64,000 bases of DNA. Origin: Kosakonia cowanii JCM 10956 = DSM 18146 (GTDB lineage: Bacteria; Pseudomonadota; Gammaproteobacteria; Enterobacterales; Enterobacteriaceae). Where the stretch lies: NCBI RefSeq assembly GCF_001975225.1, contig NZ_CP019445.1:2232001-2296000 (forward strand). Reading direction: 5' to 3'. Shown one piece after another: positions 30,931-58,666 of the stretch (positions within the stretch are counted from its first letter, which is position 1; each line of letters begins with the position of its first letter). A program made the position numbers and the translations under genes. The notes beneath the pieces are model-generated. The model had not been told where the DNA came from and searched no databases. It worked only from the letters and a program-made list of their open reading frames with translations.

Positions 30931-31251
30931 GTGGAAGGGTTCCGTTCACGAGGCATTGGGGAGTTTCATTGATCTCTTATGCGGTGAACGGGACAAGGGG
31001 AGCTGCCGCGCTCCCCTTGTCAATCCCCGCGGCCCCACGAGGAAATCGGTGCTGCGCACTGCGCTCACCTCCCGCGTGCCTGACTGCGGCCGGCTCGACT
31101 CGCCATCCTGGCTCGGTTCGCCTCTGTCCGCCATCCATGGCGTCCAGACCTTGTCATTCACGCTTCGGTTCGCCGATTTCAGCGGGGACACAACCCCTCG
31201 CTGTGAAATCTGAGCTAAAAACAAAGTCGGTGTCGCTGAAAGCGCGTTTTG
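30931..31251. repeat. Interspersed repeat, copy 1 (about 320 bp)
   Basis: The first of three related copies (also 36513-36856 and 58322-58666). It begins GTGGAAGGGTTCCGTTCAC, includes GACAAGGGGAGC / GCTCCCCTTGTC (a 12-bp hairpin at 30992-31021) and ends just before a REP unit. This copy lacks a 24-base segment (CTCGACTTGCTC...) found in the other two. Frames run open across it on both strands, but none has a ribosome site; the minus-strand frame (MSPLKSANRSVNDKVWTPWM...) is kept in all copies. Confidence 0.85.
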
Positions 31252-31440
31252 GTAGGCCGGATAAGGCGCAGCCGCCATCCGGCAATCGGTGCCGCGGAGA
31301 AAATGCCGGATGACGCGTACCGCTTATCCGGCCTACGCGGTTTCAGGGGCTTCGTTACCGTAGGCCGGATAAGGCGAAGCCGCCATCCGGCAGTGGTGCG
31401 GCGGAGATAATGCCGGATGGTGCGTAACGCTTATCCGGCC
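31251..31440. repeat. BIME cluster of REP units
   Basis: Alternating GTAGGCCGGATAAGG...GCCATCCGGCA and TGCCGGATG...CTTATCCGGCC units, at least four in tandem, running up to the 3' side of the GT8 gene. Confidence 0.85.
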
Positions 31441-31457
31441 TGGAGATTTCTCAATAA

Positions 31458-32297
31458 TTACGCTTCAACGTGGGCATGTTGCCACCACATTTTGTGCAGA
31501 TCGTAATATTTATCGCCCGGTTCGGGGTATTTGTCCCACGGTTTGTCGATGATGTAATGGATATTCTTCACCCGTGAAAGATCCCACATCTGCGGGTGCT
31601 GCTTCGGCAGGGTTTTCAGGGCGTTATATCCATAATGCAGCGGCAGCCAGCGGTCGCGGAACACCTCGTTGAGGAAATCCTGCTCGGCGAAAACCCACTC
31701 GGCGATATCCTCTTTCGCCGCCAGCTTCGCCATCATCGCGTCATAAACGTCGCGATCCGGCGTCAGCACCAGAAAACCACCGTTCAGGTAGTTATCGACC
31801 GAGGCCGGAGGCGCGGCGTTCATCTGCGCATCCTCAACCCAGCTGTAGTAGCAGTTATCCGGCTGCCAGCTGTCGGGATAGGTAGCAATATGGTTCGGAT
31901 TGCAGCGGCAGGCGTGGCAGGCAGCAAGCGTCCCTTTGGCGAGCGGCAGTTCGAACACCTCATCCATGTTCTGCACCACCAGCATATCGGCATCAAGAAA
32001 CGCGACGCGCTGATACTCCGTCAGCGTCCAGACCGCCAGCTTGCTCCACACTTCGGCGAAACGGGCGTTGGCGTAGCGGTGGGCAAGGGCAGGGTTCGGG
32101 CCGACGATCGGCACTTCGCGCACTTCACACCCCTGCGCCTGCAGCTGCTGGCGCGTGGCGGCGTCGATGGTCTCCGTCACCATCACCACCAGCGGCCACG
32201 GCGAGCCGCTGTCGCGCAGCGACTGTTGCAGCGCTTCCACACCGGGAAGGTAGCCCGGCTGCGTTAATAGCGTGACCCAGGCGAAGGCGGCGCTCAT
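31458..32297 (-). CDS. GT8-family glycosyltransferase
   Basis: 279 residues. FLDADMLVVQNMDEVFELP holds the DxD metal/nucleotide-sugar motif; NYLNGGFLVLTPD and HYIIDKPWDKYPEPGDKYYD are the acceptor-side blocks of glycogenin/galactinol-synthase-like GT8 enzymes. No signal or membrane segment is present, so it is cytoplasmic. Its start overlaps the stop of the upstream oxidase gene by four bases (ATGA), so the two are co-translated and probably act in one carbohydrate pathway. The acceptor is unknown. Confidence 0.85.
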   Translation of the reverse strand: MSAAFAWVTLLTQPGYLPGVEALQQSLRDSGSPWPLVVMVTETIDAATRQQLQAQGCEVREVPIVGPNPALAHRYANARFAEVWSKLAVWTLTEYQRVAFLDADMLVVQNMDEVFELPLAKGTLAACHACRCNPNHIATYPDSWQPDNCYYSWVEDAQMNAAPPASVDNYLNGGFLVLTPDRDVYDAMMAKLAAKEDIAEWVFAEQDFLNEVFRDRWLPLHYGYNALKTLPKQHPQMWDLSRVKNIHYIIDKPWDKYPEPGDKYYDLHKMWWQHAHVEA

Positions 32298-33676
32298 GAC
32301 AGCACCTCCGCCATAAAGCGGTTCATAAACTTACCGTCCGGATCGAAGCGGCGGCGCACGGCTTTAAACGCCTCAAACTGCGGATAGAGCGCGGGCCAGT
32401 TGTAGAGCGACGGGTCAAAATATTTGCCCCAGTGCGGTCTGCCGCCCTCTTCGGCGAGCAGCTGTTCTGCGGCGCGTAAAAAAGCCGTTCCCTCTGCGGA
32501 GAGCGATCCATCTTCAGCGTAGTAGACGACAAAACCGAAGAAGCAGGTCGGTTCCCCGCCAGCCGGGCTAAGCCAGGCGCTGGAGGCCCCGGTGCAGCGC
32601 AGAATAATCGGGTAGTGCATATGCGGCTGCGACTCGCTGTGCCACGCTTTCATGCGCGCAATCACTGCCGCAACGCGCGACATGGGAATGCCGATCTCAA
32701 TATTGATCTGCGGAGTGGCGATGCCGCGGCAGAAGACCTGGTAGATATCGCCAATCACATCCGTGAAATCTTTAAAGCGCGTAACGGTGCGAAACGGTTT
32801 GCCATTCTCATCGACAATGCGGGTGTCATCGCGCATCTGCGCGAGGGTTTTATCCACCGTGGCATTCATCTGCTCGTCGGTCTCCTCCATTTCGACCAGC
32901 TCGCCGTGGTTGTCCCGCCACAGTGCCTGCTCCTCGGCGGTCGCTTCGCGCGCGTTCCAGGTGTGCACCTTGTTCTCATCCGGGAACCACCACGCTTTGC
33001 TGAAGGTCCACTCGTCGTTCCACGCGATCAGATCCTCCGCCAGGTTATCGGCGTTGCCCGCGCTCTTAAAGCAGGTATAGAGCGTGGAAGGGCGGGTGCG
33101 CAGCGTCACGGCGGTGATCACGCCGAGGGTGCCGAGCGCCTGCTGTGCGGCGTCAAAGGCCGCATCGTCCCGCTCAATATCGTGCGCTTCACCGTGGGCA
33201 TCAATCAGGCGAATGCTGAGCGCTTCATCAGCCAGCGAGCTCTGCCCCATGCCCTGGCCGTGGGTGCCGGTCGACACTGCGCCCGCGAGGGTTTGTGAAT
33301 CGATCACGCCCGGTGAGGCGTGCAGCATGCGGTTCATGCTGGTGAGGGTCTCAAACACCTCATGCAGCACGGTTCCGGCGGCAAAGGTGACGCTCTCATC
33401 GCTCACCGCCAGCACGCCGCGCAGGCGCGAGAGGTCAATCAGCGTATCGCCCGGCTCGCTTAATTTCAGCATTCTGCCCGGCGACATGCGGCTGCCCATC
33501 ACGCGTATGCGCCCCTTTGCAGCAGCAATCATCTGCTGCAACTGCGCTTCGTTTTCCGGTGTTGCAACGGCCTGAGCGGGGGCCAGCGTGGCGTTTTTCG
33601 CCCAGTTTACAACGACGTTTTCATCAGAGGTTTGCTGTGGCAGGCGAGGTGGAAAAAGAGCCTGTAGCGTTGTCAT
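32294..33676 (-). CDS. FAD-linked oxidase of the sugar-lactone oxidase (ALO) family
   Basis: 460 residues from the ATG at 33676, six bases after AAGGAG. The N-terminal FAD_binding_4 domain has RVMGSRMSPGRML, then GAVSTGTHGQGMGQSSLADE; the C-terminal ALO domain has YFDPSLYNWPALYPQFEAFK and the closing RRFDPDGKFMNRF. In typical ALO/gulonolactone oxidases the first motif is GSGHS, whose histidine binds FAD covalently; here Met stands in that place, so flavin is probably bound non-covalently. It is the first gene of a two-gene operon with the GT8 enzyme. The substrate is probably a sugar or sugar lactone. Confidence 0.83.
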   Translation of the reverse strand: MTTLQALFPPRLPQQTSDENVVVNWAKNATLAPAQAVATPENEAQLQQMIAAAKGRIRVMGSRMSPGRMLKLSEPGDTLIDLSRLRGVLAVSDESVTFAAGTVLHEVFETLTSMNRMLHASPGVIDSQTLAGAVSTGTHGQGMGQSSLADEALSIRLIDAHGEAHDIERDDAAFDAAQQALGTLGVITAVTLRTRPSTLYTCFKSAGNADNLAEDLIAWNDEWTFSKAWWFPDENKVHTWNAREATAEEQALWRDNHGELVEMEETDEQMNATVDKTLAQMRDDTRIVDENGKPFRTVTRFKDFTDVIGDIYQVFCRGIATPQINIEIGIPMSRVAAVIARMKAWHSESQPHMHYPIILRCTGASSAWLSPAGGEPTCFFGFVVYYAEDGSLSAEGTAFLRAAEQLLAEEGGRPHWGKYFDPSLYNWPALYPQFEAFKAVRRRFDPDGKFMNRFMAEVLS

Positions 33677-33785
33677 TGGCATCTCCTTGCGCAATATTTT
33701 TGTAATGATTTATCAAGCGTAGCTCATCATGTAAAAGTGTGACGCATGTCGCTTATTTTCGTGCGATCTGGCCATCCTGATGCGA

Positions 33786-34742
33786 CTAATCGACACGATT
33801 TTGTGGTTCGCCGGTGATAAACGCCCGCACGTTTTCCACCGTGGTGGCGAGAATGCGCCCGCGCGCATCGACGGATGCCCAAGCGATATGCGGCGTAATA
33901 ATGCAGTTTTTCGCACTCAGCAGCGGGTTGTCCGCGCCAGGCGGTTCACTGCTCAGCACATCCACCGCGGCCCCGGCAATGCGCCCTTCGTTAAGGGCGG
34001 CGGCGAGATCCGCCTCGTTAATCAGATCCCCGCGCGAGGCGTTCAGCAGCAGCGCGCTGCGCTTCATCTTCGCCAGCGCCTCGCGGTTGATCATCCCCTT
34101 GGTCTGCGGCGTCAGCGGGCAGTGCAGGCTGATAACATCCGCCTCGGCGTAAAGGGTGTCGAGATCGACATAGCGGAGTTGCGCGCTCTCCGGCAGCGGG
34201 CGCGAACGGGTAGAGTGGGCGAGCACCGTCATGCCCATCGCCTGGGCGATGGCACCAAACGCCTGGCCGATGCGGCCATAGCCGATGATACCGACGCGTT
34301 TCCCCGCCAGCTCGATCATCGGTTGCAGCCAGTAACACCAGCTTTGTGACTTGCTCCAGCCGCCAGCGTGCACATCGGCGTCGTGTTCGCCGACGCGGTT
34401 GCAGAGCGCCAGCAGCAGCGCGGTGGTAAATTGCGCCACCGTGGCGGTGCCGTACGTTGGCACATTGGTAACGACAATTTGTCGGGCGCGGACAGCCTCA
34501 AGATCGATAATGTTGTAGCCGGTGGCGGTCACAGCGATACATTTCAGCCGCGGGCAGTGGGCGAGCAGGTCTTCGCTAAACGCCACTTTATTGGTAATGG
34601 CGATATCCGCATCGCGCAGGCGCTGCGCGGCTTTATCGGCCGGGGTGGTGTCATAAACCGTGACTTCGCCCAACGCATGCAGTGGCTCCCAGCTGAGATC
34701 GCCGGGGTTAAGCAGACCGCCATCCAGCACAACTATTTTCAT
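33786..34742 (-). CDS. D-2-hydroxyacid dehydrogenase
   Basis: 318 residues. The NAD-binding loop is VGIIGYGRIGQAF; catalytic residues lie in LLLNASRGDLINEADLAAAL (Arg), DVLSSEPP (Glu) and CIITPHIAWAS (His). The family includes glycerate/hydroxypyruvate-type reductases acting on small 2-oxo acids. It is a single gene on the minus strand. The long spacing to the oxidase gene (about 110 bases) makes a shared operon possible but unproven. Confidence 0.9.
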   Translation of the reverse strand: MKIVVLDGGLLNPGDLSWEPLHALGEVTVYDTTPADKAAQRLRDADIAITNKVAFSEDLLAHCPRLKCIAVTATGYNIIDLEAVRARQIVVTNVPTYGTATVAQFTTALLLALCNRVGEHDADVHAGGWSKSQSWCYWLQPMIELAGKRVGIIGYGRIGQAFGAIAQAMGMTVLAHSTRSRPLPESAQLRYVDLDTLYAEADVISLHCPLTPQTKGMINREALAKMKRSALLLNASRGDLINEADLAAALNEGRIAGAAVDVLSSEPPGADNPLLSAKNCIITPHIAWASVDARGRILATTVENVRAFITGEPQNRVD

Positions 34743-34781
34743 CTTTTCCCCATTCGGTCATGAAAGTGATGCCATAAAAAA

Positions 34782-34801
34782 GCCGGACCCTATCGTCCGG
34801 C
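34782..34801 (-). terminator. Terminator after the PncC-like gene
   Basis: GCCGGAC at 34782-34788 pairs with GTCCGGC at 34795-34801; on the minus strand it is followed by TTTTTTATGG. Confidence 0.85.
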
Positions 34802-34827
34802 ATTCGCACACAAGAAGCAAATTGCAA

Positions 34828-35364
34828 TCAATCACTTAATAGCGTTATCACGCCTGAGAGGGCATATTTCACCGCTTGCTCAATCACCTCTTTGGTATCG
34901 CCCTCGAAGAGACATTTGACGGTGACCGGTTCACTATCCGGCAGGCCCCAGCCAAACCACACGGTGCCGGCGGGGGTGCCATCTTCGCCGCCGTCGGGGC
35001 CAGTGTAGCCGGTCACGGCAATGCTGACCGGCTCGTGGCTGGCGTCGCAGGCGCCTTGCGCCATTTCGAAAGCCGTCTGCTGGCTAACCGCCGTCCAGCG
35101 CGCCAGCGTCTCTTTGTTCACCTGCAACAGCGTCTGTTTCGCTTCATCGGTAAAGGTGATAAACCCGCTGCCGTAAAACTCCGGCGTGCTTTCGCAGGCG
35201 CAGAGGGCGGTGGCGATCTGCCCGCCGGTGCAGGACTCGGCGGTGGTGACGCGCAGTTTTTTATCGCACAACAGCGTGCCGAGCCGGTCGGCCAGATCGC
35301 TGATCTCAAGCTTTAACAGCGGCGCGACGCGCTCACTTTGTAATGTGGTGGTTTCACTGTTCAT
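34828..35364 (-). CDS. CinA/PncC-family nicotinamide-nucleotide amidohydrolase-like protein
   Basis: 178 residues from the ATG at 35364 with GGGAG upstream; the frame continues 13 codons further but without a better site. It has the CinA C-terminal core: VTTAESCTGGQIATALCACE, FITFTDEAKQTLLQV and VTGYTGPDGGEDGTPAGTVW. It is a stand-alone CinA-C protein like E. coli YdeJ. Family knowledge: PncC deamidates NMN to NaMN, but YdeJ-type paralogues may lack that activity. Its own terminator follows. Confidence 0.85.
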   Translation of the reverse strand: MNSETTTLQSERVAPLLKLEISDLADRLGTLLCDKKLRVTTAESCTGGQIATALCACESTPEFYGSGFITFTDEAKQTLLQVNKETLARWTAVSQQTAFEMAQGACDASHEPVSIAVTGYTGPDGGEDGTPAGTVWFGWGLPDSEPVTVKCLFEGDTKEVIEQAVKYALSGVITLLSD

Positions 35365-35421
35365 ATTACTCCCTTCCATCCGAAAGAAAATTCTGCCTGG
35401 CAAAAGTATAGCAGCGCACTT

Positions 35422-35871
35422 TTAAGGCGAATTTTTCGGAATGATCGAGATATGACCATTGCGCTCAAGGATGGCGAATTTAATCTCTGCGAGGTCGACA
35501 ATGCCCTGGTTATTGCGCGCCGAGAGCATAATATCGGCGCGGGAGATATCCGCCTCGCGCATCTTCTCCGGCAGCATTTCACCGTTCTCGACCAGCACCA
35601 CCGGTGTGCCGTCGATAAAGTTTTCTGCCCCTTTCACGTACTTCTTCAGCTTGCCAAACAGAATATCCACTACCACCAGCGTGATGATGGTCAGCGCCGC
35701 GCCGGTGACGGAGAAGTCGTTGCCGAGCAGCGCCTGCTGCGTCGCTTCACTGATGATCAGCAACAAAATGAGATCGAAGGAGGTCATCTGCAACAAGGCT
35801 CGCCGACCAGCGATTTTGAATACCACCATTAACACCAGATAGATCGCTACCGCGCGTAACACCATATCCAT
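35422..35871 (-). CDS. YetF/DUF421-family membrane protein
   Basis: 149 residues. Two to three N-terminal membrane helices (LRAVAIYLVLMVVFKIAG; LILLLIISEATQQALL; ALTIITLVVVDILFG) are followed by a cytosolic YetF-type domain (GTPVVLVENGEMLPEKMREA and the typical ARNNQGIVDLAEIKFAILER-like block). Family knowledge: the function is poorly known; relatives include E. coli YcaP. It follows the next gene upstream by 10 bases, so the two form an operon. Confidence 0.88.
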   Translation of the reverse strand: MDMVLRAVAIYLVLMVVFKIAGRRALLQMTSFDLILLLIISEATQQALLGNDFSVTGAALTIITLVVVDILFGKLKKYVKGAENFIDGTPVVLVENGEMLPEKMREADISRADIMLSARNNQGIVDLAEIKFAILERNGHISIIPKNSP

Positions 35872-35881
35872 CGCCGTCTCC

Positions 35882-36382
35882 TCAGGGCCAGATAAACTGT
35901 TTCACCGCCAGCTGGGTGGTGTCATTTAACGAAAGTCGCAATTCGCTGCTGCCAGGGGTTTGCGGCGTCAGTCCGAGCCAGACGGTGAAGGGTTGATCGG
36001 GATGAGGACGGGCATACTCCAGCACCAGTTCGCCGTTCTGGCTGGTCATCTTTTCCGGCTGCGGTTGCAGGGTGCGGATCTCAAAATCCTGCATAAAGTT
36101 GCCGCCGAGGATAAAAACGGTGCGGCGTTCGTTTGAGGCGTGGGCGGTGAGTTGCATATCGATATCGCTTTGCAGGCGGGCGTAGCGGTCATACTGCACC
36201 GTCAGTTTGCCATCAATGCTATGGGCGCTTCGCGCGCTGAGCCACCCCTGGGAAAAGAGACCGAGCAGCCCGGCGATCACTACCGCAAACAATATTACGG
36301 AGCCAATGCGCTGCACCTTTGTTTCAACATGCAGCCAGAACGGGCTGTCAGCCACCGGATAGCGGTGCGACTTCTTCTCCAT
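35882..36382 (-). CDS. Membrane-anchored hypothetical protein paired with DUF421 gene
   Basis: 166 residues from the ATG at 36382 with GGAGAG upstream. It has a basic N-terminus, one membrane helix (IGSVILFAVVIAGLLGLFSQ) and then an extracytoplasmic beta-rich domain (GKLTVQYDRYARLQSDIDMQ). It is first in a two-gene operon with the YetF-family protein and probably works with it at the membrane. I do not know a characterised family. Confidence 0.65.
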   Translation of the reverse strand: MEKKSHRYPVADSPFWLHVETKVQRIGSVILFAVVIAGLLGLFSQGWLSARSAHSIDGKLTVQYDRYARLQSDIDMQLTAHASNERRTVFILGGNFMQDFEIRTLQPQPEKMTSQNGELVLEYARPHPDQPFTVWLGLTPQTPGSSELRLSLNDTTQLAVKQFIWP

Positions 36383-36467
36383 CTCTCCTCCACGGTGTCG
36401 GTGGAAACCACGTAAAGAGAGTGTAGATGAGGCGGGGGCCATGCGGTAACGAAGCCGCTCCGATCCC

Positions 36468-36500
36468 GTAGGCCGGATAAGCGTAGCGCCATCCGGCAAT
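36468..36500. repeat. REP unit
   Basis: GTAGGCCGGATAAGC ... GCGCCATCCGGCA palindrome upstream of repeat copy 2. Confidence 0.8.
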
Positions 36501-36512
36501 GGGTTTGGATTG

Positions 36513-36856
36513 GTGGAATGGTTCCGTTCACCAGGCACTGGGGAGTTTCATTAATCTCTTATGCGGTGAACGGGACAAGGGGGGGACCGCTCCCCCCTTG
36601 TCAATCCCCTCGGCCCCGCGAGGAAATCGGTGCTGCGCACTGCGCTCACCTCCCGCGTGCCTGACTGCGGCCGGCTCGACTCGACTTGCTCACCCCTACG
36701 GGGATTCGCTCCCTGTCTCGGTTCGCCTCTGTCCGCCATCCATGGCGTCCAGACCTTGTCATTCACGCTTCGGTTCGCCGATTTCAGCGGGGACACAACC
36801 CCTCGCTTTCATATTGCAGACAAAAGCAAAACCGGTATCGCTGGAACTGCGGTTTT
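36513..36856. repeat. Interspersed repeat, copy 2 (about 344 bp)
   Basis: It begins GTGGAATGGTTCCGTTCACC and shares nearly all of its length with copies at 30931 and 58322. The hairpin GACAAGGGGGG / CCCCCCTTGTC lies at 36573-36602. An imperfect inverted repeat (TTCCGTTCACC ... GGTGAACGGGA) spans the first 60 bases. It ends at a REP unit. The whole gap 36383-37008 consists of this element plus REP units. Confidence 0.85.
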
Positions 36857-36998
36857 GTAGGCCGGATAAGCGTACGCGCCATCCGGCATTATCTCTGCGG
36901 CACCGATTGCCTGATGGCGGCTACGCCTTATCCGGCCTACGCGGTTTCAGCGGATGTGGTTTTGTAGGCCGGATAAGCGCCAGCGCCATCCGGCAATC
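36857..36998. repeat. BIME cluster of REP units
   Basis: Three REP units (GTAGGCCGGATAAGCG...GCGCCATCCGGCA and inverted CTTATCCGGCCTAC) between repeat copy 2 and the acyltransferase gene. Confidence 0.85.
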
Positions 36999-37008
36999 TG
37001 CGAGGAAC

Positions 37009-38727
37009 TTACCCCGCTTTCTGCTGCACCTGATGCACACCAATATAGCGCTCGTAGCGGTTCGCCTTCAGCCGCGTCAAATCCACCAGCACCAGGCCGT
37101 CGACGCAGTTACTGAAATCGGGATCGCTACCGAAGTCGATAAACTGCACGCCGCCGGGCTCGCCCAGCTCGGAATACTGTTTATAGAGCGGGGGAATGCC
37201 GCAGCCGAGATTACCAAGCAGCGATTTCAGCCGCGTCAGATCTTCGGTGTAATCCTCGCCGGTAAACTGCGCCAGCACCTCGGGCAGGGTGGCGGGGCAG
37301 GGGCGGCGCGACGACGCAAGCGGCCAGGCAGCGGGGAACCAGAGGCGATAGAAGGCAATCAGCAGATCGCGCGCCGCAGGCGGCAGGCCGCCGGAGATAG
37401 AGACCGGGCCAAAGAGATAACGGTATTGCGGGTAGCGCGCCAGATAAGCGCCAATCCCCGACCAGAGATAATCGAGCCCGCGACGACCCCAGTAGCGCGG
37501 TTGAATAAAGCTGCGCCCCAACTCAAGCCCTTCGCGCAGCACCTCCGCCATACGTGCATCGTAGTGAAACAGGCTATGGCTATAGAGCCCCTCCGGCCCC
37601 TGCTCGGCGATAAGCTGCGCCGTCGGCATAAAGCGGTAAGCGCCGACGATCTCCAGATCGGCATCATCCCAGAGGATCAGGTGCAGGTAGTGATCATCGT
37701 AGCGATCCGTATCGCGCCGTTTGCCGCTCCCTTCACCCACCGCGCGAAAAGCGATCTCGCGCAGCCGCCCCAGTTCGCGCAACAGCGGTGCATCCTCCTG
37801 GCCGTTGCGCTGCCAGAGATAGATTGTTTTGCCGTCCGGCGTGCGGCCAAGGCACTCGGCGCGGCTCAGTTCGCGGCGCAGGGTGGCTCTGTCTTCCGGC
37901 CGGGCGATGGCGCATTCGGTTTTGAACGTGCCGGGCACTCCCTTGCCGAGACGCAGAAGATGCTGGCGACACTTCTCGGCCAGCTCGCGCGGCGCGAGGG
38001 CGGTAGTGTGCCAGTTCTCCCAGGGAATGCGCTGACCGAGGGTGAGCGGCAAGCTGCTGTTACGGCGGCGAAACATCTGCTGCATCAACAGCAGCAGCGG
38101 CAGGGTGTCTGAGAGCAGGGCGCTGGCGTAAAACAGCGCGCTGTTGCGGGCATCGATCCACGCTGGCAGCAGCGGGGCGCGGAACTTGTTCGCCAGCTTG
38201 ATAAACCCGGCGTGCCAGCGTTTATCGCGAATCCCTTTGCGGGTCAGGCGCGACACTTCGCCCGCCGGGAAAAAGATCAGCACGCCGCCGGATTGCAGCT
38301 GGTTTTCCATCTGTTGTAGGGCCGATTTGGTGGTGCGCCCGCCGATATTGTCCACTGCGATAAAGAGCGAACTTAAGGGTTCGAGGTGGCTCAGCAGGCG
38401 GTTAGTGACCACTTTGACATCGCGGCGCACGCGCGAGACGGCATACATCAGCGCCAGCCCATCCAGCGTACCGGTCGGGTGGTTGGCGATAATCACCAGC
38501 GGGCCATGTTCGGGGATTTGTTCGAGGCAGTGAGCGGGGATGGTACAGCGAATTTGCAGATGGTCGAGGACATGTTCCACCATATCCAGCCCTTTCAGGT
38601 GGCGGTGCTGGGCGGCGAATTGCTGGAACTCCTGTTCGTAAAGCAGACGCCTGAGCAGGTTCTTTTGCCAGGGTGCCGGTCTGGCCTGCGGCCAGAGATC
38701 CTCAAGTACATTGTCGAGACTAAACAT
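37009..38727 (-). CDS. OlsF-like fused lysophospholipid acyltransferase / GNAT-like N-acyltransferase
   Basis: 572 residues with two domains. The N-terminal part (about 70-270) is PlsC-like: VIIANHPTGTLDGLALMYAV, then VDNIGGR and FFPAGEVSRL. The C-terminal part (about 310-500) resembles the hemolysin-type acetyltransferase_5 domain: IVGAYRFMPTA, LYSHSLFHYD and ELGRSFIQPRYWGRRGLDYL. Family knowledge: OlsF of Serratia has this order and makes ornithine lipids in one protein. A lipid aminoacyl function is inferred from domain order only. It is a single gene between REP clusters. Confidence 0.75.
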   Translation of the reverse strand: MFSLDNVLEDLWPQARPAPWQKNLLRRLLYEQEFQQFAAQHRHLKGLDMVEHVLDHLQIRCTIPAHCLEQIPEHGPLVIIANHPTGTLDGLALMYAVSRVRRDVKVVTNRLLSHLEPLSSLFIAVDNIGGRTTKSALQQMENQLQSGGVLIFFPAGEVSRLTRKGIRDKRWHAGFIKLANKFRAPLLPAWIDARNSALFYASALLSDTLPLLLLMQQMFRRRNSSLPLTLGQRIPWENWHTTALAPRELAEKCRQHLLRLGKGVPGTFKTECAIARPEDRATLRRELSRAECLGRTPDGKTIYLWQRNGQEDAPLLRELGRLREIAFRAVGEGSGKRRDTDRYDDHYLHLILWDDADLEIVGAYRFMPTAQLIAEQGPEGLYSHSLFHYDARMAEVLREGLELGRSFIQPRYWGRRGLDYLWSGIGAYLARYPQYRYLFGPVSISGGLPPAARDLLIAFYRLWFPAAWPLASSRRPCPATLPEVLAQFTGEDYTEDLTRLKSLLGNLGCGIPPLYKQYSELGEPGGVQFIDFGSDPDFSNCVDGLVLVDLTRLKANRYERYIGVHQVQQKAG

Positions 38728-38814
38728 GGCGATTTCTCCTCCCGTCTTGCCGCTGACAGTAGCGGGAGAAGATGACGCTTACATTTCATTACAATGACGT
38801 TATGAGCATTTATT

Positions 38815-38978
38815 GCAGGCCGGATAAGGGGCAAGCCGCCATCCGGCAGGGGGGAGTGCGGTGAAATGCCGGATGGCGCTACGCTTATCCGGCCTACAAA
38901 GGCAGGACAGACGAACATACGGTAAAGCGGGCCACGAATTATGTAGGCCGGATAAGGCATAAGCCGCCATCCGGCATT
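38815..38978. repeat. BIME cluster of REP units
   Basis: At least three REP units (GCAGGCCGGATAAGG, CTTATCCGGCCTAC, GTAGGCCGGATAAGG) between the acyltransferase gene and hemB. Confidence 0.85.
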
Positions 38979-38999
38979 GCAGAAGGCAGAGCGGGAAAA

Positions 39000-50457: not shown

Positions 50458-50463
50458 GGGCTG

Positions 50464-50489: not shown

Positions 50490-50547
50490 TGGTTTTTTCG
50501 CCAATTAGGACCATCCTTAAAGAGTTCATTGACAGAAGGATGGCGCT

Positions 50548-50868: not shown

Positions 50869-51046
50869 TCCTCCCCGCGCGGGCGTACATCGCGCCCGCA
50901 TACTCACCGTGTTTCTGCCGTTGTGTTGCTCCCCGCTTAATCTCTGCCAGGCTTAATTTGTGAGCTGTGTTGTCTTTTTTTCCTTTGCGAGTGTACGTCG
51001 CCAGACGTTACGCCCGTTTTGCCACACCAATACGGGAGCAAGAGTA

Positions 51047-52570
51047 ATGAATTATCAATATGTTACCGACCTGAACGATCTGCCGGAAAACCAGCCGGTG
51101 AAATTCGATGTCGATGGCACCTCGCTTATCCTCATCCGCACCTTAACCCAGGTGCGCGCGTTCCAGAGCCGCTGTCCCCATGCCGGTGCGCCGCTTGAGC
51201 AGGGCGCAGTATGCGATGGGCGGCTGGTCTGCCCGTGGCATAAAGCCAACTTCGATATCACTAACGGCGAGTGGTGCGAGCCGCTGGCGCTGCAAAACCT
51301 GAAGCAGTATCCGGTGCATATTGAGCAGAACCGCGTACTGGTTAACCCGCGTCCGCTCTCGCCGACTACCCACAACACCATTCGTGGCGATGGCCCGCAA
51401 ACGGTAGTGATCCTCGGGACCGGCGCGGCCGGTAGCTCGGCGGCGGTGACGCTGCGCGACGCCGGGTTTAACGGCCATCTGATGCTGATCGATAAAGAGA
51501 GCGAAGCGCCCTATGACCGCACGGCGCTAAGCAAATTTGTGCCGTCAGGCAAGATGAAGATCAGCGAAGTGCCGCAACTGCTGGATAAGGCGTTCTATGC
51601 CCAGCCGGGGGTGGAAAACATTGATCAAGAGGTGACAACGCTTGATGCTGAAGCGCATCAGCTGACGCTCGCCGACGGGCGTGAAATTACCTTCGATAAA
51701 CTGCTGCTGGCGACCGGTGGACGCCCCGTCTGGCCGGAGATTAGCGGTAACCAGCTGGCGGGCGTGCATGTGCTGCGTGATATCCACCAGGCGCAGACGC
51801 TGCTCAGTGAAGTGGAAGATGAGCAGCAACTGGTGATTGTTGGTAACAGCTTTATCGCTATGGAGCTGGCGGCGGCGCTGCGTAACCAGGATGTCGATGT
51901 CACCGTCCTGTCGCGCCATGCGCTGCCGTTTGTGCCACAGTTCGGCGAAGAGATTGGCCGCCACTTTATGCAGTTGCATAAGCAGAATGGCGTCAAGTTT
52001 GTGACCGGCGAGCCAGCGGAGTTGCAGGGCGATAAGCACGTGCAGCGCGTGGCGCTGAAAGATGGTCGTACCATTCCGGCGCATGTGGTGGTGTTTGCCA
52101 CCGGCGTAGAGCCTTCGACCGATCTGGTGGGCGATCTGCCCCACGAAGAGGATGGCAGCCTGACGGTGGATGAGTATCTGCGCGCCGCGCCCGATATCTG
52201 GGCGGTGGGCGATATCGCCACCTATCCGGCACCGGAAGGGCCTCGACGCATTGAGCACTGGCGCGTTGCGCAGCAGCAGGGGCGCATTGCGGCGCTCAAT
52301 ATGCTCGGTGAATCACAGCCCTTTGATCGGGTGCCCTTCTTCTGGACTACCCACTTCGGCACGCGTTTTGAATACCTCGGATATGCCCGCGAGTGGGACA
52401 GCATGAAGATGCTGGGCTCGTTTGAGAATAAACGTTTTGCCGTGCTCTACGGCCAGGAAGGGATGCTGAAAGCGGTGCTGAGCTGCGGCGAGAACACTGC
52501 CACGGCGGAACTGGTGCTGAAAATGCAGGAGCCGCTGACCATGCGTGCGGCCAGCGAACTCCTCTCGTAA
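51047..52570 (+). CDS. Rieske-type FAD-dependent NAD(P)H oxidoreductase
   Basis: 507 residues from the ATG at 51047. The N-terminal Rieske domain has both ligand pairs: CPHAGAPLEQG and CPWHKANFD. The NAD/FAD disulphide-reductase-like part has VVILGTGAAGSSAAVTLRDA, LLLATGGRP, VIVGNSFIAMELAAALRNQD and IWAVGDIATY. This domain order matches AIF-like/ferredoxin-reductase proteins. It occupies the psiF-proC interval that holds dgcC in E. coli. The electron partner is unknown. Confidence 0.87.
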   Translation: MNYQYVTDLNDLPENQPVKFDVDGTSLILIRTLTQVRAFQSRCPHAGAPLEQGAVCDGRLVCPWHKANFDITNGEWCEPLALQNLKQYPVHIEQNRVLVNPRPLSPTTHNTIRGDGPQTVVILGTGAAGSSAAVTLRDAGFNGHLMLIDKESEAPYDRTALSKFVPSGKMKISEVPQLLDKAFYAQPGVENIDQEVTTLDAEAHQLTLADGREITFDKLLLATGGRPVWPEISGNQLAGVHVLRDIHQAQTLLSEVEDEQQLVIVGNSFIAMELAAALRNQDVDVTVLSRHALPFVPQFGEEIGRHFMQLHKQNGVKFVTGEPAELQGDKHVQRVALKDGRTIPAHVVVFATGVEPSTDLVGDLPHEEDGSLTVDEYLRAAPDIWAVGDIATYPAPEGPRRIEHWRVAQQQGRIAALNMLGESQPFDRVPFFWTTHFGTRFEYLGYAREWDSMKMLGSFENKRFAVLYGQEGMLKAVLSCGENTATAELVLKMQEPLTMRAASELLS

Positions 52571-52575
52571 CGTTC

Positions 52576-52601
52576 GCGCCACGGTCTTATCGCCGTGGCG
52601 C
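52576..52601. terminator. Terminator between the oxidoreductase and proC
   Basis: GCGCCACGG and CCGTGGCGC form a 9-bp stem, followed by TGCCTTTTA; it lies between convergent genes. Confidence 0.7.
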
Positions 52602-52607
52602 TGCCTT

Positions 52608-53417
52608 TTACGCGCTCAGTTTTTCCGACTTCGCCATACAGGCGGCCATCGCGTCCATCACCGCAGCGCGAAAACCCTTATCTTCCAGCACCTTCACCGC
52701 TTCGATGGTGGTGCCGCCCGGCGAGCAGACCATATCTTTCAGTTCGGCAGGGTGTTTACCCGTTTCCAGCACCATCTTCGCCGAACCCATTACTGCCTGC
52801 GCAGCAAATTTATAGGCCTGCGCGCGCGGCATACCGCCCAGCACGGCGGCATCGGCCATCGCTTCGATAAACATAAACACATACGCCGGAGCCGAGCCGC
52901 TGACGCCGACTACCGGGTGGATCATCCCTTCGGCAATCACTTCCGCTTCGCCAAAGCAGCGGAAAATGGTCAGCACATCGGCGGTATCTTCAGACGTCAC
53001 CAGCGCATTTGGCGTGATGGAGGTCATCCCGGCGTTAACCAGCGCGGGGGTGTTCGGCATCACGCGGATAATTTTGCGGTCGTGGCCCAGCGCGCGCGCC
53101 AGCTGATCGAGCGTTACGCCCGCCGCGATGGAGACCACCAGCGTCTCTTTGTTCAGGCTGGAGGCGATATCGCTAAGCACTTTCACCATGATGTTCGGCT
53201 TCACGGCGCCAAAGACAATATCGGCGATCTGCGCCACTTCCTGCGCGCTTTGCGCGGCGTTAATGCCATACTCCTGTTGCAGGGCGGCGACCTTATCAGG
53301 CGTTGGCGTGTAAACCCAAATCTGCCCCGGTTTCACCTCGCCGCTGGCGATCAGCCCGCCGAGAATCGCCTTACCCATGTTACCGCAGCCGATAAAACCG
53401 ATTTTCTTTTCCATCAC
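52608..53417 (-). CDS. proC: Pyrroline-5-carboxylate reductase
   Basis: 269 residues, as in E. coli. The NADP loop is IGFIGCGNMGKAILGGLIAS; the P5CR C-terminal block is VSGSAPAYVFMFIEAMADAA and the final DMVCSPGGTTIEAVKVLED. It catalyses the last step of proline synthesis. Confidence 0.97.
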   Translation of the reverse strand: MMEKKIGFIGCGNMGKAILGGLIASGEVKPGQIWVYTPTPDKVAALQQEYGINAAQSAQEVAQIADIVFGAVKPNIMVKVLSDIASSLNKETLVVSIAAGVTLDQLARALGHDRKIIRVMPNTPALVNAGMTSITPNALVTSEDTADVLTIFRCFGEAEVIAEGMIHPVVGVSGSAPAYVFMFIEAMADAAVLGGMPRAQAYKFAAQAVMGSAKMVLETGKHPAELKDMVCSPGGTTIEAVKVLEDKGFRAAVMDAMAACMAKSEKLSA

Positions 53418-53544
53418 GTCCCTCTCTGCTTGTTATTGCATGTGATTCATAGCTTAACGCGCTTTTCCGGCGAGGGCGAAAGGATCTCTGCTTTCCCCGG
53501 CGGGCAATTAAAGGGACAATGCGCCGAAACAAAAAGGAGTCACC

Positions 53545-54006
53545 ATGGCGATATGGGTTGATGCGGACGCCTGTCCGAATGTGATTAAAGAGATTTTATT
53601 TCGCGCTGCGGAGCGGACACAGACGCCGTTAACGCTGGTCGCTAACCAGAATCTGCGCGTGCCGCCCTCGAAGGTGATCCGCGCGCTCAGGGTGCCGGCA
53701 GGCTTTGACGTTGCCGATAACGAAATCGTACGCCTCTGCGCGACGGATGATCTGGTGATCACCGCCGATATTCCGCTGGCGGCGGAGGTCATAGCAAAAG
53801 GGGCGGCAGCGCTTAACCCGCGCGGTGAGCGCTACACGGAAGCGACCATCCGCGAGCGGCTGACCATGCGCGATTTTATGGATACGTTGCGCGCCAGCGG
53901 CATTCAGACCGGCGGCCCGGACTCCCTCTCGCAGCGCGATCGCCAGCAGTTCGCCGCGCAGCTCGATAAGTGGCTGCTTGAGCGCCAGCGCCGCCAGACA
54001 CCGTAA
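53545..54006 (+). CDS. yaiI: UPF0178 protein YaiI
   Basis: 153 residues, DUF188. Its PIN-like fold shows conserved acidic residues in [20 protein letters not shown] and [17 protein letters not shown]. Divergent from proC and followed by aroL, as in E. coli. A nuclease-like role has been suggested from the fold but is unproven. Confidence 0.95.
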
Positions 54007-54056
54007 CCGGGCTTGTCAGTTTTTATCACTTCCAGTAAGGTTGCCGCTACAGGTGA

Positions 54057-54074
54057 TGCCACGGAAACTTTACA
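54057..54074 (+). promoter_or_regulatory. TyrR-like box 1 upstream of aroL
   Basis: TGCCACGGAAACTTTACA fits TGTAAA-N6-TTTACA with a perfect right half. Confidence 0.5.
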
Positions 54075-54121
54075 GCCTCAATGGCTGCGCCAGAACGTTC
54101 TAATGCACAAAATTGGGAGTG

Positions 54122-54139
54122 TGTAACGTTACTCTTACG
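54122..54139 (+). promoter_or_regulatory. TyrR-like box 2 upstream of aroL
   Basis: TGTAACGTTACTCTTACG fits TGTAAA-N6-TTTACA with three mismatches. E. coli aroL is repressed by TyrR through several such boxes. Confidence 0.5.
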
Positions 54140-54220
54140 CAGCACGCGCCGTTGGTTTAGTGCTATCATCGCCATCTTATTGTTGTCCCCCAACCGGGGG
54201 CCTGGAGGAACAACCTGCTC

Positions 54221-54745
54221 ATGACGCTACCCATCTTTCTCATCGGCGCACGCGGCTGCGGTAAAACCACTGTTGGCCGGGCGCTGGCGCTGTCACAGGG
54301 CTTCCAGTTTATCGATACCGATAGCTGGTTGCAGGAAGAGGCGCAGCAGACCGTTGCGCAAATCGTAGAGCAGGAGGGGTGGGCCGGTTTTCGCGCCCGC
54401 GAAACGGCAGCACTTGAAGCCGTGACCGAACCCGCTCTGGTCATCGCCACCGGCGGCGGCATTATTCTCAGCGACTATAACCGCCGTTTTATGCGCGAGC
54501 ACGGGCGCGTGATTTACCTCTGCGCGCCGGTCGATGTGCTGGCAGGACGGCTGGAAGCCTTTCCGCAAGAGGGGCTACGCCCTACGCTGACCGGCAAGCC
54601 GATCAGCGAAGAGGTGAGCGAAGTGCTCGCCACCCGCGATGCGCTTTACCGCGATGCGGCACACTTTGTGGTGGATGCCGCGCAGCCGCCGCTGGCGGTG
54701 GTGGCAGAAATTGAGGCGGCTTTACGGCTGGCGCGCGCCAGTTAG
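54221..54745 (+). CDS. aroL: Shikimate kinase II
   Basis: 174 residues, as in E. coli. The P-loop is [21 protein letters not shown] and [10 protein letters not shown] bind shikimate, and [13 protein letters not shown] follows. It phosphorylates shikimate in aromatic amino acid synthesis. It heads the aroL-yaiA-aroM cluster and has TyrR-like boxes upstream. Confidence 0.96.
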
Positions 54746-54795
54746 CGAAACGTTTGACTATACTTATCTCTCTAACCACAAAAGGAGAATAAGCT

Positions 54796-54987
54796 ATGCC
54801 GACTAAACCGCCCTATCCGCGTGAAGCCCGTGTTGTAGCTGTTGAGAAGGGACCCAGCGACGCGACTGTCACCTGGTATGAACTGCGCGCGGATCATCCG
54901 AAGCCGGACTCATTGATCAGCGAACACCCCTCGGAGCAGGAAGCGCTGGATGCGAAAAAGCGTTACGAGGATCCCGATAAAAGCTAA
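54796..54987 (+). CDS. yaiA: Small protein YaiA
   Basis: 63 residues ([20 protein letters not shown]), the same size as E. coli YaiA, with an AAAGGAG ribosome site. It is co-transcribed with aroL in E. coli and of unknown function. Confidence 0.93.
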
Positions 54988-55119
54988 CCCGGCGATCCCG
55001 CCAGTATGATTTCCTGAACCTTTCAGAAAGTCGCTTGCATCACATTTTTTGACTGGCTTAATGCCAGTCACTGTTTATATTCATTATTACTGGAATTTAT
55101 TAGAACACAGGAGTGGCAC

Positions 55120-55174
55120 ATTCTCTTTACACGGCGGCGGTGATCCATCCTCCGTCGGTTGTTGTGTAGAGAAT
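55120..55174 (+). other. Long hairpin in the yaiA-aroM interval
   Basis: ATTCTCT..ACAC at 55120-55132 pairs with GTGTAGAGAAT at 55164-55174 (two-base bulge) around a GC-rich centre that can fold further. The AroM start lies 38 bases downstream. It may be a leader structure or an mRNA stability element. Confidence 0.35.
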
Positions 55175-55211
55175 CATAACTAAAAGCAGTTTTGAAAGGC
55201 GGTAAGCAAAG

Positions 55212-55892
55212 ATGAGTGCGACGTTGGCGATCCTCACCATAGGTGTGGTGCCGGTAAAAGAGATCCTGCCGCTTCTGGCAGAGCATGTTTCAGAAGATCA
55301 AATCACCCATGTCAGCCTGCTGGGGAAGATGGACCCGGCACAAGTTCGTATCGATTATTGCGTTGATCCCGGCGAGACCGCCATCCCGACACGTCTGAGC
55401 GACGACAGCCTCGGCATGGTTTCGCGCCAGAAGGTGGAGCGCGATCTGCAAAGCGTGATCGAAGTGCTCGATAACCAGGGGACCTATGACGTCATTCTGC
55501 TGATGAGCACCGCCGATATCCGCGGCTTAAACGCGCGAAATGCCATTCTGATTGAACCGCAGCGCATCATTCCCCCGCTGGTTGCCTCGATTGTTGATGG
55601 TCACCAGGTCGGCGTGATTGTGCCGGTACCTGAACTGATGGCACCGCAGAAGAAGAAGTGGCAGGTGCTGGAAAAAGAGCCACTGTATGAGCTCTGCCAC
55701 CCCTATCAGGCGAGCGAGACGGAATTGATTGACGCCGGAAGAGCGCTGCTGGAACGCGGTGCCGATGTACTGATGCTCGACTGTCTTGGCTTCCATCAGC
55801 TGCATCGCGATCTGCTGCAAAAAGCGCTGGATGTCCCGGTTTTACTCTCCAATGTGCTGGTGGCGCGCCTGGCCTCAGAACTGCTGGTATAG
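55212..55892 (+). CDS. aroM: AroM family protein
   Basis: 226 residues (E. coli 225). It begins [20 protein letters not shown] and has a conserved [20 protein letters not shown] near the end, resembling Asp/Glu racemase-like folds. Its function is unknown; in E. coli it is under TyrR/TrpR control with aroL. Confidence 0.94.
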
Positions 55893-55978
55893 CCGCAGAA
55901 CGGCGCAATTTCGCGTGACATCACTTAAGCCCGGCCTCTATAGTGGTTTTCCAGTCATTTCTCTATAAGGGCCTGTTT

Positions 55979-56263
55979 ATGCTTCAAAGTAATGAATACT
56001 TTTCCGGTAAAGTGAAGTCCATTGGGTTTACCAGCAGCAGCACCGGCCGCGCCAGCGTCGGCGTGATGATGGAAGGGGAGTACACCTTCTCCACCGCGCA
56101 GCCGGAAGAGATGACGGTGGTCAGCGGCGCGCTGAATGTGCTGTTGCCAGGCGAAACCGAATGGAAAACGCATGCCGCCGGCGAAGTGTTCAATGTCCCG
56201 GGTCACAGCGAATTCCATCTGCAGGTCGCCGAGCCGAGTGCCTATCTCTGCCGTTATCTGTAA
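55979..56263 (+). CDS. ppnP: Pyrimidine/purine nucleoside phosphorylase PpnP
   Basis: 94 residues from the ATG at 55979, the same as E. coli (YaiE). It is a small cupin: [20 protein letters not shown] and [20 protein letters not shown]. Family knowledge: it phosphorolyses a broad range of nucleosides to base and ribose-1-phosphate. Confidence 0.95.
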
Positions 56264-56289
56264 CGCTTGCGCCTTCCGGCGACAAAAAA

Positions 56290-56315
56290 GCCCGGTAGCG
56301 CTGCGCTGACCGGGC
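56290..56315 (-). terminator. Terminator shared by ppnP and rdgC
   Basis: GCCCGGT and ACCGGGC arms; the AAAAAA at 56284-56289 gives a T-run for the minus-strand rdgC transcript. Confidence 0.85.
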
Positions 56316-56340
56316 CTGTGAAAGTGAGTCGCTAAAATCG

Positions 56341-57252
56341 TTAGCGCTGGGCTTCGCCGCCCAGGCCTTCCACCAGATTTTGAATCAGTGCCGCCAGCTC
56401 GCCGGTCATCAGAATAAAATCGGCATCGAAACGCTGGGCATAATCTTCCCGGTCGATATCTTCATTCTGATCGCGCAGCTCATCGCTGAACTTCAGGCGT
56501 TTTACCGAGCCATCATCACAGATCATAAACTGGATGCGCTGCTGCCAGTCGAGGGCCAGTTTGGTCACCACTTTGCCTGCTTCAATGTGCACGGCGATTT
56601 CGTCGCTCACCAGATCCTGCTTTTTCGCGCGGATCACGCCGCCATCTTCCAGCATCGCTTTCAGCTCGGCTTCGTCCAGCAGTTGGAACCCTTGCGCGAC
56701 GGTGCCGGAGCGTACCCACTCGGTCAGCGTCAGCTCAATCGGGTTTTCCATCGTCAGCGGTACGACCGGGAGAGAGCCGAGGCTTTTACGCAGCAGCGCC
56801 AGCGTATCTTCCGCTTTTTTTGCGCTGGCGCAGTCGACCATAATCAGGCCGTTGACGGTGTCGATCCACATCATCGTCTGGCTGTAGCGGCTGAAGGCGC
56901 GCGGCAGCAGCGAGTGCAGCACTTCATCTTTCAGCGCATCTTTTTCGGTTTTTTTCAGTTTGCGCGCCTGCTCGGCTTCAAGGCGGGCGATTTTCGCTTC
57001 CAGCGCCTGTTTCACCACCGGCGTCGGCAGGATTTTCTCTTCTTTACGCGCGCAGATAATAATCTGACCGTTGTTGGTGTGGGTCAGCGCTTCGCTGTGT
57101 GAGCCCATCGGTGGAACCCAACCGGTTTTCGCCATATCCTGACTACCGCATGGCGTAAACGAGAGCGGGGCGAGCTGTTTTTCCATCTCTTCCGCACGGA
57201 GCGCCACATCGCGGCTGAGACGGTATACCATTAAATTTTTGAACCACAGCAT
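56341..57252 (-). CDS. rdgC: Recombination-associated protein RdgC
   Basis: 303 residues from the ATG at 57252, the E. coli length; the frame continues upstream but into the divergent mak promoter. Conserved blocks are [40 protein letters not shown] and [20 protein letters not shown]. It is a nucleoid-associated ring dimer that limits RecA activity. Confidence 0.96.
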
Positions 57253-57351
57253 GATTTTTTCCACGGCCTTGTCGTTAAATGCAGCGGGCATAATAGCGAA
57301 TTGTCGCCGCGCTTGCATTGCTAATGCGTGGTCCACTACGAGGAGTTTGAT

Positions 57352-58260
57352 GTGCGTATCGGTATCGATTTGGGTGGTACAAAGACAGAGATTATTGCGC
57401 TGGACGAGAGCGGCGAGACGCTGTTCCGCCATCGGCAGCCGACGCCGCGCGACTATCTGCAGACCATTGAGCTTATCGCTTCGCTGGTCGACTTAGCGGA
57501 AAAAGAGACCGGCCAGCGCGGCACGGTTGGCATGGGTATTCCGGGCTCTATCTCGCCCTATACCGGGGTGGTGAAGAACGCCAACTCCACGTGGCTCAAC
57601 GGTAAACCCTTTGATAAAGACTTAAGCCAGCGCCTTAATCGTGAAGTGCGCCTTGCGAACGATGCCAACTGTCTGGCGGTGTCGGAAGCGGTCGACGGCG
57701 CGGCAGCGGGCGCGCAGACGGTGTTTGCGGTGATTATCGGCACCGGCTGCGGCTCCGGTATTGCGCTCAATGGCCATTCGCATATCGGCGCTAACGGTAC
57801 GGCGGGCGAGTGGGGGCACAATCCGCTGCCGTGGATGGATGAGGATGAGCTGCGTTACCGTAATGAAGTGCCCTGCTATTGCGGCAAACAGGGGTGCATT
57901 GAGACCTTTATCTCCGGCACCGGGTTTGGCACCGATTACCAGCGACTGAGCGGCCAGGCGTTGAAGGGCAACGAGATTATTCGCCTGGTGAACGAGCAGG
58001 ACGCGGTTGCCGAGCTGGCGCTGAGCCGCTATGAGATGCGGCTGGCGAAATCACTGGCGCATGTGGTGAATATCCTCGATCCCGATGTGATCGTGCTGGG
58101 CGGCGGGATGAGTAATGTCGATCGTCTGTACCAGACTGTACCCGGTTTAATGCAGAAGTGGGTTTTTGGCGGCGAGTGTGAAACGCCAATCCGCAAAGCG
58201 TTGCACGGGGATTCCAGCGGCGTGCGCGGCGCCGCATGGCTCTGGCCGCAGGGGGAGTAG
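57352..58260 (+). CDS. mak: Manno(fructo)kinase
   Basis: 302 residues from the GTG at 57352 with AGGAG upstream. ROK family: the ATP loop is [12 protein letters not shown], the catalytic Asp region [19 protein letters not shown], and the zinc motif [19 protein letters not shown]. It phosphorylates fructose or mannose. In E. coli araJ lies next; here a repeat cluster stands in its place. Confidence 0.96.
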
Positions 58261-58273
58261 GCCGCGAAACCGC

Positions 58274-58308
58274 CCAGGCCGGATAAGCGGTTACGCGCCA
58301 TCCGGCAA
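58274..58308. repeat. REP unit
   Basis: CAGGCCGGATAAGCGG ... GCGCCATCCGGCA palindrome directly after mak. Confidence 0.8.
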
Positions 58309-58321
58309 TTGGACTGGATTG

Positions 58322-58666
58322 GTGGAAGGGTTCCGTTCACCAGGCGTTGGGGAGTTTCATTAATCTCTTGTGCAGTGAACGGGACAAGGGGGGGGCCGCT
58401 CCCCCCTTGTCAATCCCCGCGGCCCCGCGAGGAAATCGGTGCTGCGCACTGCGCTCACCTCCCGCGTGCCTGACTGCGGCCGGCTCGACTCGACTTGCTC
58501 GCCCGTTCCGGGACTCGCTCCCTGTCTCGGTTCGCCTCTGTCCGCCATCCATGGCGTCCAGACCTTGTCATTCACGCTCCGGCTCGCCGATTTCAGCGGG
58601 GACACAACCCCATCGCTTTCATATTGCAGATAAAAGCAAAGACGGTGTCGCTGCAGGCTCGCTTTT
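58322..58666. repeat. Interspersed repeat, copy 3 (about 345 bp)
   Basis: The third copy of the element at 30931 and 36513; it begins GTGGAAGGGTTCCGTTCACC and has the hairpin GACAAGGGGGG / CCCCCCTTGTC at 58382-58411. It is closest to copy 2, sharing the 24-base segment that copy 1 lacks. The gap mak-sbcC consists of this element, REP units and a short inverted end. Confidence 0.85.

Follow-up and report, generated by a model that had tools for sequence, protein, structure and literature searches.

What is a folded, non-coding element doing in several highly similar copies in an enterobacterial genome? Three such copies, starting at 30931, 36513 and 58322 (GTGGAANGGTTCCGTTCAC), lie in a 64,000-nucleotide stretch of Kosakonia cowanii JCM 10956 (contig NZ_CP019445.1, positions 2,232,001 to 2,296,000; hereafter the window). 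A sequence-only reading of this stretch had described the copies as lying beside repetitive extragenic palindromic (REP) units and had taken them for a mobile, structured element without a known name rather than a gene. The copies and the features given for them are present in the sequence, and they belong to a family of folded non-coding repeats dispersed in enterobacteria, of which both the family and the fold are secure. On balance, we favor the view that this family acts as RNA, and that the protein CsrA binds its A(N)GGAX-loop hairpins, which form on the complement of the window's plus strand (hereafter the opposite strand).

A covarying multi-helix fold

A first set of 142 distinct near-full-length copies was kept out of 225 profile hits, and 26 representatives of less than 85% identity were used for covariation analysis. 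The automatic consensus fold was poor, and 51 pairs in seven helices (P1, P2, P5, P7 and the long-range P3, P4 and P6) were set by hand. Among the 26 representatives, 93.4% of the cells were paired, compared with 81.6% in shuffled alignments. Changes on both sides were seen in 34 of the 51 pairs (14.3 in shuffles, 10-20 when slid) and in 144 cells (40.1 and 16-30), and the covariation score was 0.306 (0.103 and at most 0.076), with the slid control leaning toward these pairs because the helices were hand-set. P4 and P6 connect alignment columns ~210-220 and 160-170 apart. The long GC hairpin, P2, had been singled out because both of its arms had changed together, and it does carry GACAAGGGGAGC/GCTCCCCTTGTC in copy 1 and GACAAGGGGGG/CCCCCCTTGTC in copies 2 and 3; the covariance check proposed alongside that observation found paired changes above shuffles in the larger alignment. 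The opposite strand of copy 1 (310 bases) had a predicted folding energy of -131 kcal/mol (z = -2.81), and none of 100 shuffles was as stable.

The covariation, the lack of three-base periodicity and lengths that break the frame all agree with the claim that the element is structured and is not a gene. A protein-coding reading was rejected, as column entropy modulo 3 was flat (0.71, 0.74 and 0.69) and the anchor spacing fell in all three frames (71, 29 and 12 of 112 parsed). The plus strand of this GC-rich element frequently has open frames by chance, with a median longest run of 72-86 of ~90 residues.

Departures from standard pairs point modestly to the opposite strand as the one that folds. 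A-C on the plus strand, which corresponds to G-U on the opposite strand, occurred 63 times and G-T 40 times (p = 0.03). The P2 helices of the further elements described below gave a wobble direction of 4 to 0 for the opposite strand (36 of 48 elements parsable). On the opposite strand, the loops of P5 belong to the GNA type, which is stable; their two outer positions are conserved in 140 and 138 of the 142 copies.

Hairpin loops with the pattern of CsrA sites

The opposite strand carries hairpins with the loop A-N-GGA-X on a C-G-closed stem. In the loop of P7, aligned across the 142 copies, A1 was kept in 124 of 138, G3 and G4 in all 142 and A5 in 140 of 142, while N2 took all four letters (64, 56, 13 and 8) and X6 was distributed as 121, 15, 5 and 1. 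In work on Pseudomonas RsmE (PMC4005645), sites that CsrA or RsmE bind with high affinity are described as ANGGAX hexaloops seated directly on a stem, in which N and X are variable and the adenines stack on a C-G closing pair. Systematic evolution of ligands by exponential enrichment gave the CsrA consensus RUACARGGAUGU (PMC7652899). The P7 loop, with its fixed A and GGA and its free N and X, matches the RsmE contact pattern described in PMC4005645. By this pattern, the loops are strong candidates for CsrA-type sites. The possibility that P7 loops are merely stable tips was rejected, since P7 keeps GGA and frees N; such a description does fit the GNA loops of P5.

The placing of GGA, and not GGA itself, is enriched (211 occurrences compared with 224 expected). 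Predicted loops held GGA in 47 of 166 cases among the 26 representatives, while 20 shuffles gave a mean of 14.65 of ~137 and a maximum of 22. The words CANGGANG and CAGGANG occurred 28 and 19 times, compared with 4.0 and 4.1 expected and maxima of 12 and 11 in 200 shuffles. Across the 142 copies, 146 ANGGAX hairpins were found, 140 of them C-G-closed (stems of at least 4 pairs) and present in 123 copies; the other six are A-T-closed and lie in P1, and the count without them is still 123 copies. Twelve loop patterns were compared, and the other 11 totaled 0-4 on the opposite strand. Outside the copies, both strands of the window together held 6 ANGGAX hairpins. The plus-strand pattern A.CCA. 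scored 76, and these loops probably represent the complementary reading of the same hairpins. A C-G-closed ANGGAX hairpin was present in all 26 copies of the host genome, and the number of A(N)GGAX hairpins ranged from 0 to 3 per copy across the 142. Two or three words of the A(N)GGA type were present in 12 of the 13 stretches inspected from a divergent subfamily, among them L172, which belongs to the first set as well.

The loop recurs in further elements

Further elements were found with a covariance model that does not contain P7, and ANGGAX was scored only in the 190 bases beyond the model. Of 57 model hits, 48 were taken, the others being cut at an end (5), additional hits in L255 (3) or in L224 (1). 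Forty-six were long enough; their 22 source genomes include 20 that were new to the analysis, and 28 of the elements, from 11 genomes, represent new genera. In three of the 46, a 60-mer is identical to one in a first-set copy.

On the opposite strand, these elements held 44 ANGGAX hairpins, every one of them C-G-closed, compared with 1.23 +- 1.08 in 200 shuffles (maximum 5). One hairpin was found on the plus strand and one on the opposite strand in the flank before P1, and 16 other loop patterns gave 0-4 on the opposite strand. At least one ANGGAX hairpin was present in 40 of the 46 elements, in 20 of the 24 that are less than 85% alike and in 23 of the 28 from the five genera new to the analysis. 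The stems of the further elements differ widely, and the loop is kept.

Distribution of the family

The genome-wide search suggested by the sequence-only reading recovered 26 copies in the 4.86-Mb host genome, together with a solitary 23-base end in the window. A DNA search gave matches in 26 of 195 relatives (13 of 148 genera). Model R1, a covariance model that covers half of the element (P1, P2 and P5; 25 of 26 sequences, L031 left out), had matches at E <= 0.001 in 131 of the 392 Enterobacteriaceae genomes sampled, and in 50 of their 154 genera. The best 9 candidates were scored in each genome, so that copy numbers are lower bounds; the E-values are rough, and the best one exceeded 1e-6 in 13 of the 131 matched genomes. 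Element length across the family is ~260-375 bases. The element is carried by K. cowanii 282A-S69, whose long flanks are 90-95% identical to those of the host genome. In E. coli, a single 82-base match was found in 1 of 5426 genomes, in a record labelled E. coli CT29, and among plasmids there was a single match (71% over 65%) on a Klebsiella variicola plasmid. The element had no match in phages, and the two-arm pattern had no exact match in viral contigs.

No name for the element was found, as the sequence-only reading had said. Rfam at curated cut-offs had no match to the element in the window. At relaxed cut-offs, the region around copy 2 gave three sub-threshold naRNA4 hits on REP units, one of which begins in the left REP and continues into the element's left end, and two chance hits. 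No earlier description was found in the open-licence literature, although one may exist elsewhere: one survey counts 250 mobile or repeat RNA candidates (PMC11109978), so that an earlier sighting is possible, and a second survey of candidate RNAs was also consulted (PMC2864571).

Some elements occur in arrays. In genome G025, elements alternate with inverted elements of the divergent subfamily in a tandem array with a unit of ~640-710 bases (L146, ~1560-4210), and closely spaced hits elsewhere in this genome hint at further arrays of this kind. In L041 (~1620-1760) and L028 (~1410-1490), the left-end motif on its own is repeated in short tandem arrays beside an element, with units of ~25-32 bases.

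Neighboring genes and transcription signals

Both neighbors were called, by simple open-frame calls, for 86 elements after 4 at contig or locus edges were set aside; same-site copies of relatives are included, so the cases are non-independent. Neighbors converged in 51, were in tandem in 33 and diverged in 2, compared with 19 converging and 16 diverging among 89 baseline gaps from four stretches of the host genome. This placement suits 3'-end transcripts, and equally mere avoidance of promoters. It also favors a rival explanation in which the element has a structural or terminator-like role at gene ends, for example as a two-way transcription barrier or a gyrase or IHF site, and its likeness to CsrA sites is fortuitous. 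We give this explanation little credence: only one terminator-like match was found around copy 2, which is near chance, and the loop pattern is specific and recurs in the further elements.

A common terminator-like hairpin (GGCCCGA..TCGGGCC, with a T-run on the opposite strand) was noted in L157 (~1345-1385) and in the right flank of L034 (genome G031). It lies beyond the right end and could insulate the element from the neighboring gene.

REP units as a trait of one clade

The element had been said to lie always beside REP units. In the host genome, REP-like flanks were found to the left of 25 and to the right of all 26 copies, compared with 44 matches to the same pattern in 2000 random 125-base stretches of the window. 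REP units stood on both sides of 25 of the 26 host copies, 9 of 10 copies in K. cowanii 282A and all 19 in the close relative G011. Outside these genomes, both-sided REP was found in 2 of 9 copies in G002, 1 of 17 other same-genus copies and none of 52 copies in five other genera, where no copy had REP on either side. Two same-genus genomes, G014 and G005, have the element at the site of host copy L008, and the flanking sequence inspected there contains no REP. The association therefore holds in the cowanii clade but fails elsewhere, and is a trait of the clade rather than of the element. A search restricted to Y1 transposases (RAYT type) was negative in the host genome and gave hits in 5 of 14 control genomes. 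Since both-sided REP is regular only in the cowanii clade and no Y1 transposase was found in the host genome, REP units were most likely added in this one clade.

Copy 2 and one REP (~36499-36856) are missing from G011, where a single REP pair occupies the site, and the difference falls at GTAG. In this presence/absence pair REP stands on both sides of the core, so that recombination between REPs is indistinguishable from target-site duplication. At the copy 3 site, the element is inverted in K. cowanii 282A, and G011 has an inverted remnant. Such observations would suit a passenger of REP units, that is, a REPIN or BIME with cargo moved by RAYT: both-sided REP is nearly universal in the host and G011, the difference between G000 and G011 at copy 2 is one REP plus the core, cut at GTAG, and inverted REPs would permit the inversion seen in two relatives. 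This explanation is largely refuted for the family, and we rejected it as very improbable, given the negative search for a Y1 transposase in the host, the rarity of both-sided REP in G002 and the other same-genus genomes, its absence from the 52 copies in five other genera and the elements at the L008 site in G014 and G005.

A long tandem run of REP-like units with a period of ~102 bases was observed at G011:C1:3843817-3845240.

Old sites and concerted evolution

The mobility claimed for the element was borne out in part. The copy 3 site is empty in all 7 other same-genus genomes tested apart from two close relatives (43-135 bases, compared with ~600-615 in the window), and copy 2 is missing from one close relative. 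These are the empty sites that the sequence-only reading had proposed to look for, but most sites are occupied in more than one species and the copies evolve in concert. With flanks of at least 700 bases, 21 of 22 G011 loci (two of them remnant-only) and 6 of 9 G002 loci lie at element sites of the host genome. Of 18 testable shared sites, only 4 had the same-site G011 copy as the closest or tied closest among G011 copies, and at 17 another copy in the host genome was closer than the same-site G011 counterpart. Because sites are common to species and copies are alike within a genome, the sites are old and the sequences have been homogenized within each genome. Gene conversion would most simply account for this likeness.

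Single elements have one end motif in a test for terminal inverted repeats, and facing pairs of the left-end motif, or of elements, occur in several genomes. A rival explanation is a purely DNA-level mobile element, without an RNA function, whose single-stranded hairpins would be recognized by a trans-acting transposase, with the conserved loops as its recognition sites. Dispersed copies, empty sites, a conserved left-end motif that also stands alone and in facing pairs, and tandem arrays in one genome all speak for it. We nevertheless consider it unlikely, although it deserves some weight. The host genome yielded no Y1 transposase in a search that did not extend to other transposase families, the sites are mostly common to species with copies in concerted evolution, and a DNA enzyme offers no reason for the ANGGAX contact pattern.

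A proposed role in Csr regulation

Under the favored reading, in which the family acts as RNA, the opposite strand would be transcribed, either from its own promoter or by read-through from the neighboring gene, in most cases a converging one. The RNA would fold into P1, P2, P3/P4/P6, P5 and P7 and display one to three A(N)GGAX hairpins, which would bind CsrA. Copies might then soak up CsrA, the 26 copies serving as a decoy pool beside CsrB, or a copy might act as a local switch that anchors CsrA at the 3' end of the transcript in which the copy lies. The copies, mostly between gene ends and long resident, would be kept alike by gene conversion, and in the cowanii clade the REP units joined on both sides may serve as recombination sites that flip or remove them. 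More tentatively, the repeat may have spread CsrA docking sites over ~50 genera, with gene conversion keeping them uniform in each genome, and so form a dispersed third arm of the Csr system. If this were true, dozens of 3'-end RNAs would jointly set the level of free CsrA, or each would tether CsrA to particular transcript ends.

Several results weigh against the favored reading. A stricter, tree-based simulation left only 4 column pairs above the maximum of its 30 null runs. P2 holds two of them and P6 one; the fourth lies in a short GGA hairpin between P6 and P7 that is not among the 51 hand-set pairs. Only 20 of the 50 highest-scoring column pairs are mostly standard pairs, though 9 of the top 10 are. 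The wobble evidence on the strand is modest, and neighboring genes do not favor the folded strand, the right gene pointing toward the element in 63 and the left gene in 72 of 86 cases. No sigma-70-like promoter was found in the stretch scanned around copy 2. An A(N)GGAX hairpin is lacking in 6 of the 142 copies, and in 13 the only such hairpins have a five-letter loop; 6 of the 46 further elements lack an ANGGAX hairpin. Among host copies, candidate sites are single in 15, strong plus weak in 10 (a pentaloop beside a hexaloop) and two strong in 1. RNAs of the CsrB/C type, in contrast, have many sites (23 GGA in the 358 bases of the host csrB), compared with one to three per copy of the element.

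The element resembles CsrB/C-type RNAs in having GGA in hairpin loops, ANGGA-type sites above chance and enterobacterial hosts, and the host genome has csrA and csrB of its own. It differs in its large conserved multi-helix fold, in its 26 dispersed copies rather than one gene and in having no known promoter or terminator. The Rfam CsrB model had no match in the element, while the same model found the host csrB elsewhere. Like REPIN and BIME (GTAG repeats), the element is intergenic and palindromic and, in the cowanii clade, lies beside REP units; unlike them, its core is not built from REP and lives without REP in other genera, and the genome yielded no RAYT-type transposase. ERIC, BoxC, RUP/BOX and similar small interspersed repeats (surveys, PMC2267715 and PMC3733652) are likewise non-coding, dispersed, structured and up to a few hundred bases long. 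The element would probably be set apart from these repeats by its protein-site-like loops on covarying stems, its long-range multi-helix fold and its concerted evolution at shared sites.

Interspersed repeats of bacteria have mostly been regarded as inert or mobile DNA. If CsrA does bind, many of the sites are missing from models of Csr regulation in these bacteria, and the repeat family would be a regulator titrated by copy number. Even without CsrA binding, a structured family with matches in 131 of 392 Enterobacteriaceae genomes and no Rfam match merits cataloguing. The evidence for a selected fold is strong, the loop resembles a protein site, and the proposal is directly testable with one purified protein.

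A weak hit of the CsrB model (25 bits), csrC-like, was noted at G000:C1:267112-267420.

Copies in the window and element anatomy

The features of the three copies are given in Table 1. The alignment of the 26 host copies runs from the left-end motif GTGGAANNGTTCCGTTCACC to ~...GGTNTCGCTG, followed by a short linker and REP. The ends had been described as sharp; the right limit is less so, the core reaching the right ends listed, each approximate, before a 13-base linker to REP. The clean 24-base difference of copy 1 proved to be a real indel, a hairpin that is present in 15 host copies (within 1-2 bases), absent in 10 and expanded in 1.

Table 1. Positions of the element copies, their parts and the adjoining REP units in the window (minus is the strand thought to be folded and functional)
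Feature	Position	Strand	Remark
REP unit left of copy 1	30872..30906		GTAG at 30872
Copy 1	30931..31238	-	Left-end motif at 30931, right end ~31238
Left-end motif GTGGAANNGTTCCGTTCAC of copy 1	30931..30949	+	3' part is the 5' arm of P1, partner ~30984-30991
Helix P2 (long GC hairpin) of copy 1	30992..31021		Both-side changes in 10 of 12 pairs in 26 diverse copies
Short hairpin of copy 1, GCC-AGGAT-GGC	31102..31112	-	AGGAX pentaloop, candidate weaker CsrA-type site from sequence
Hairpin P7 of copy 1, CGCC-ATGGAT-GGCG	31129..31142	-	ANGGAX hexaloop, candidate CsrA site
REP unit right of copy 1	31252..31286		Inverted REP next
REP unit left of copy 2	36468..36499		One REP plus core is the stretch absent here in relative G011
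Copy 2	36513..36843	-	Carries extra 24-base hairpin
Hairpin P7 of copy 2, CGCC-ATGGAT-GGCG	36734..36747	-	
REP unit right of copy 2	36857..36888		Inverted REP next
REP unit left of copy 3	58273..58308		
Copy 3	58322..58653	-	Carries extra 24-base hairpin
Hairpin P7 of copy 3, CGCC-ATGGAT-GGCG	58543..58556	-	
REP and inverted REP right of copy 3	58667..58751		
Solitary left-end motif facing copy 3	58787..58809	-	Remnant or far end of a two-ended unit

In the expanded host copy (L065, 3812765-3813152), a chain of extra hairpins replaces the 24-base one and includes another ATGGAT hexaloop. Copy 3 and the solitary end motif that faces it (58322-58809) enclose ~490 bases with REP units inside, an arrangement that resembles a unit with inverted ends, and similar facing ends are found at 1025244/1025681 in the host genome.

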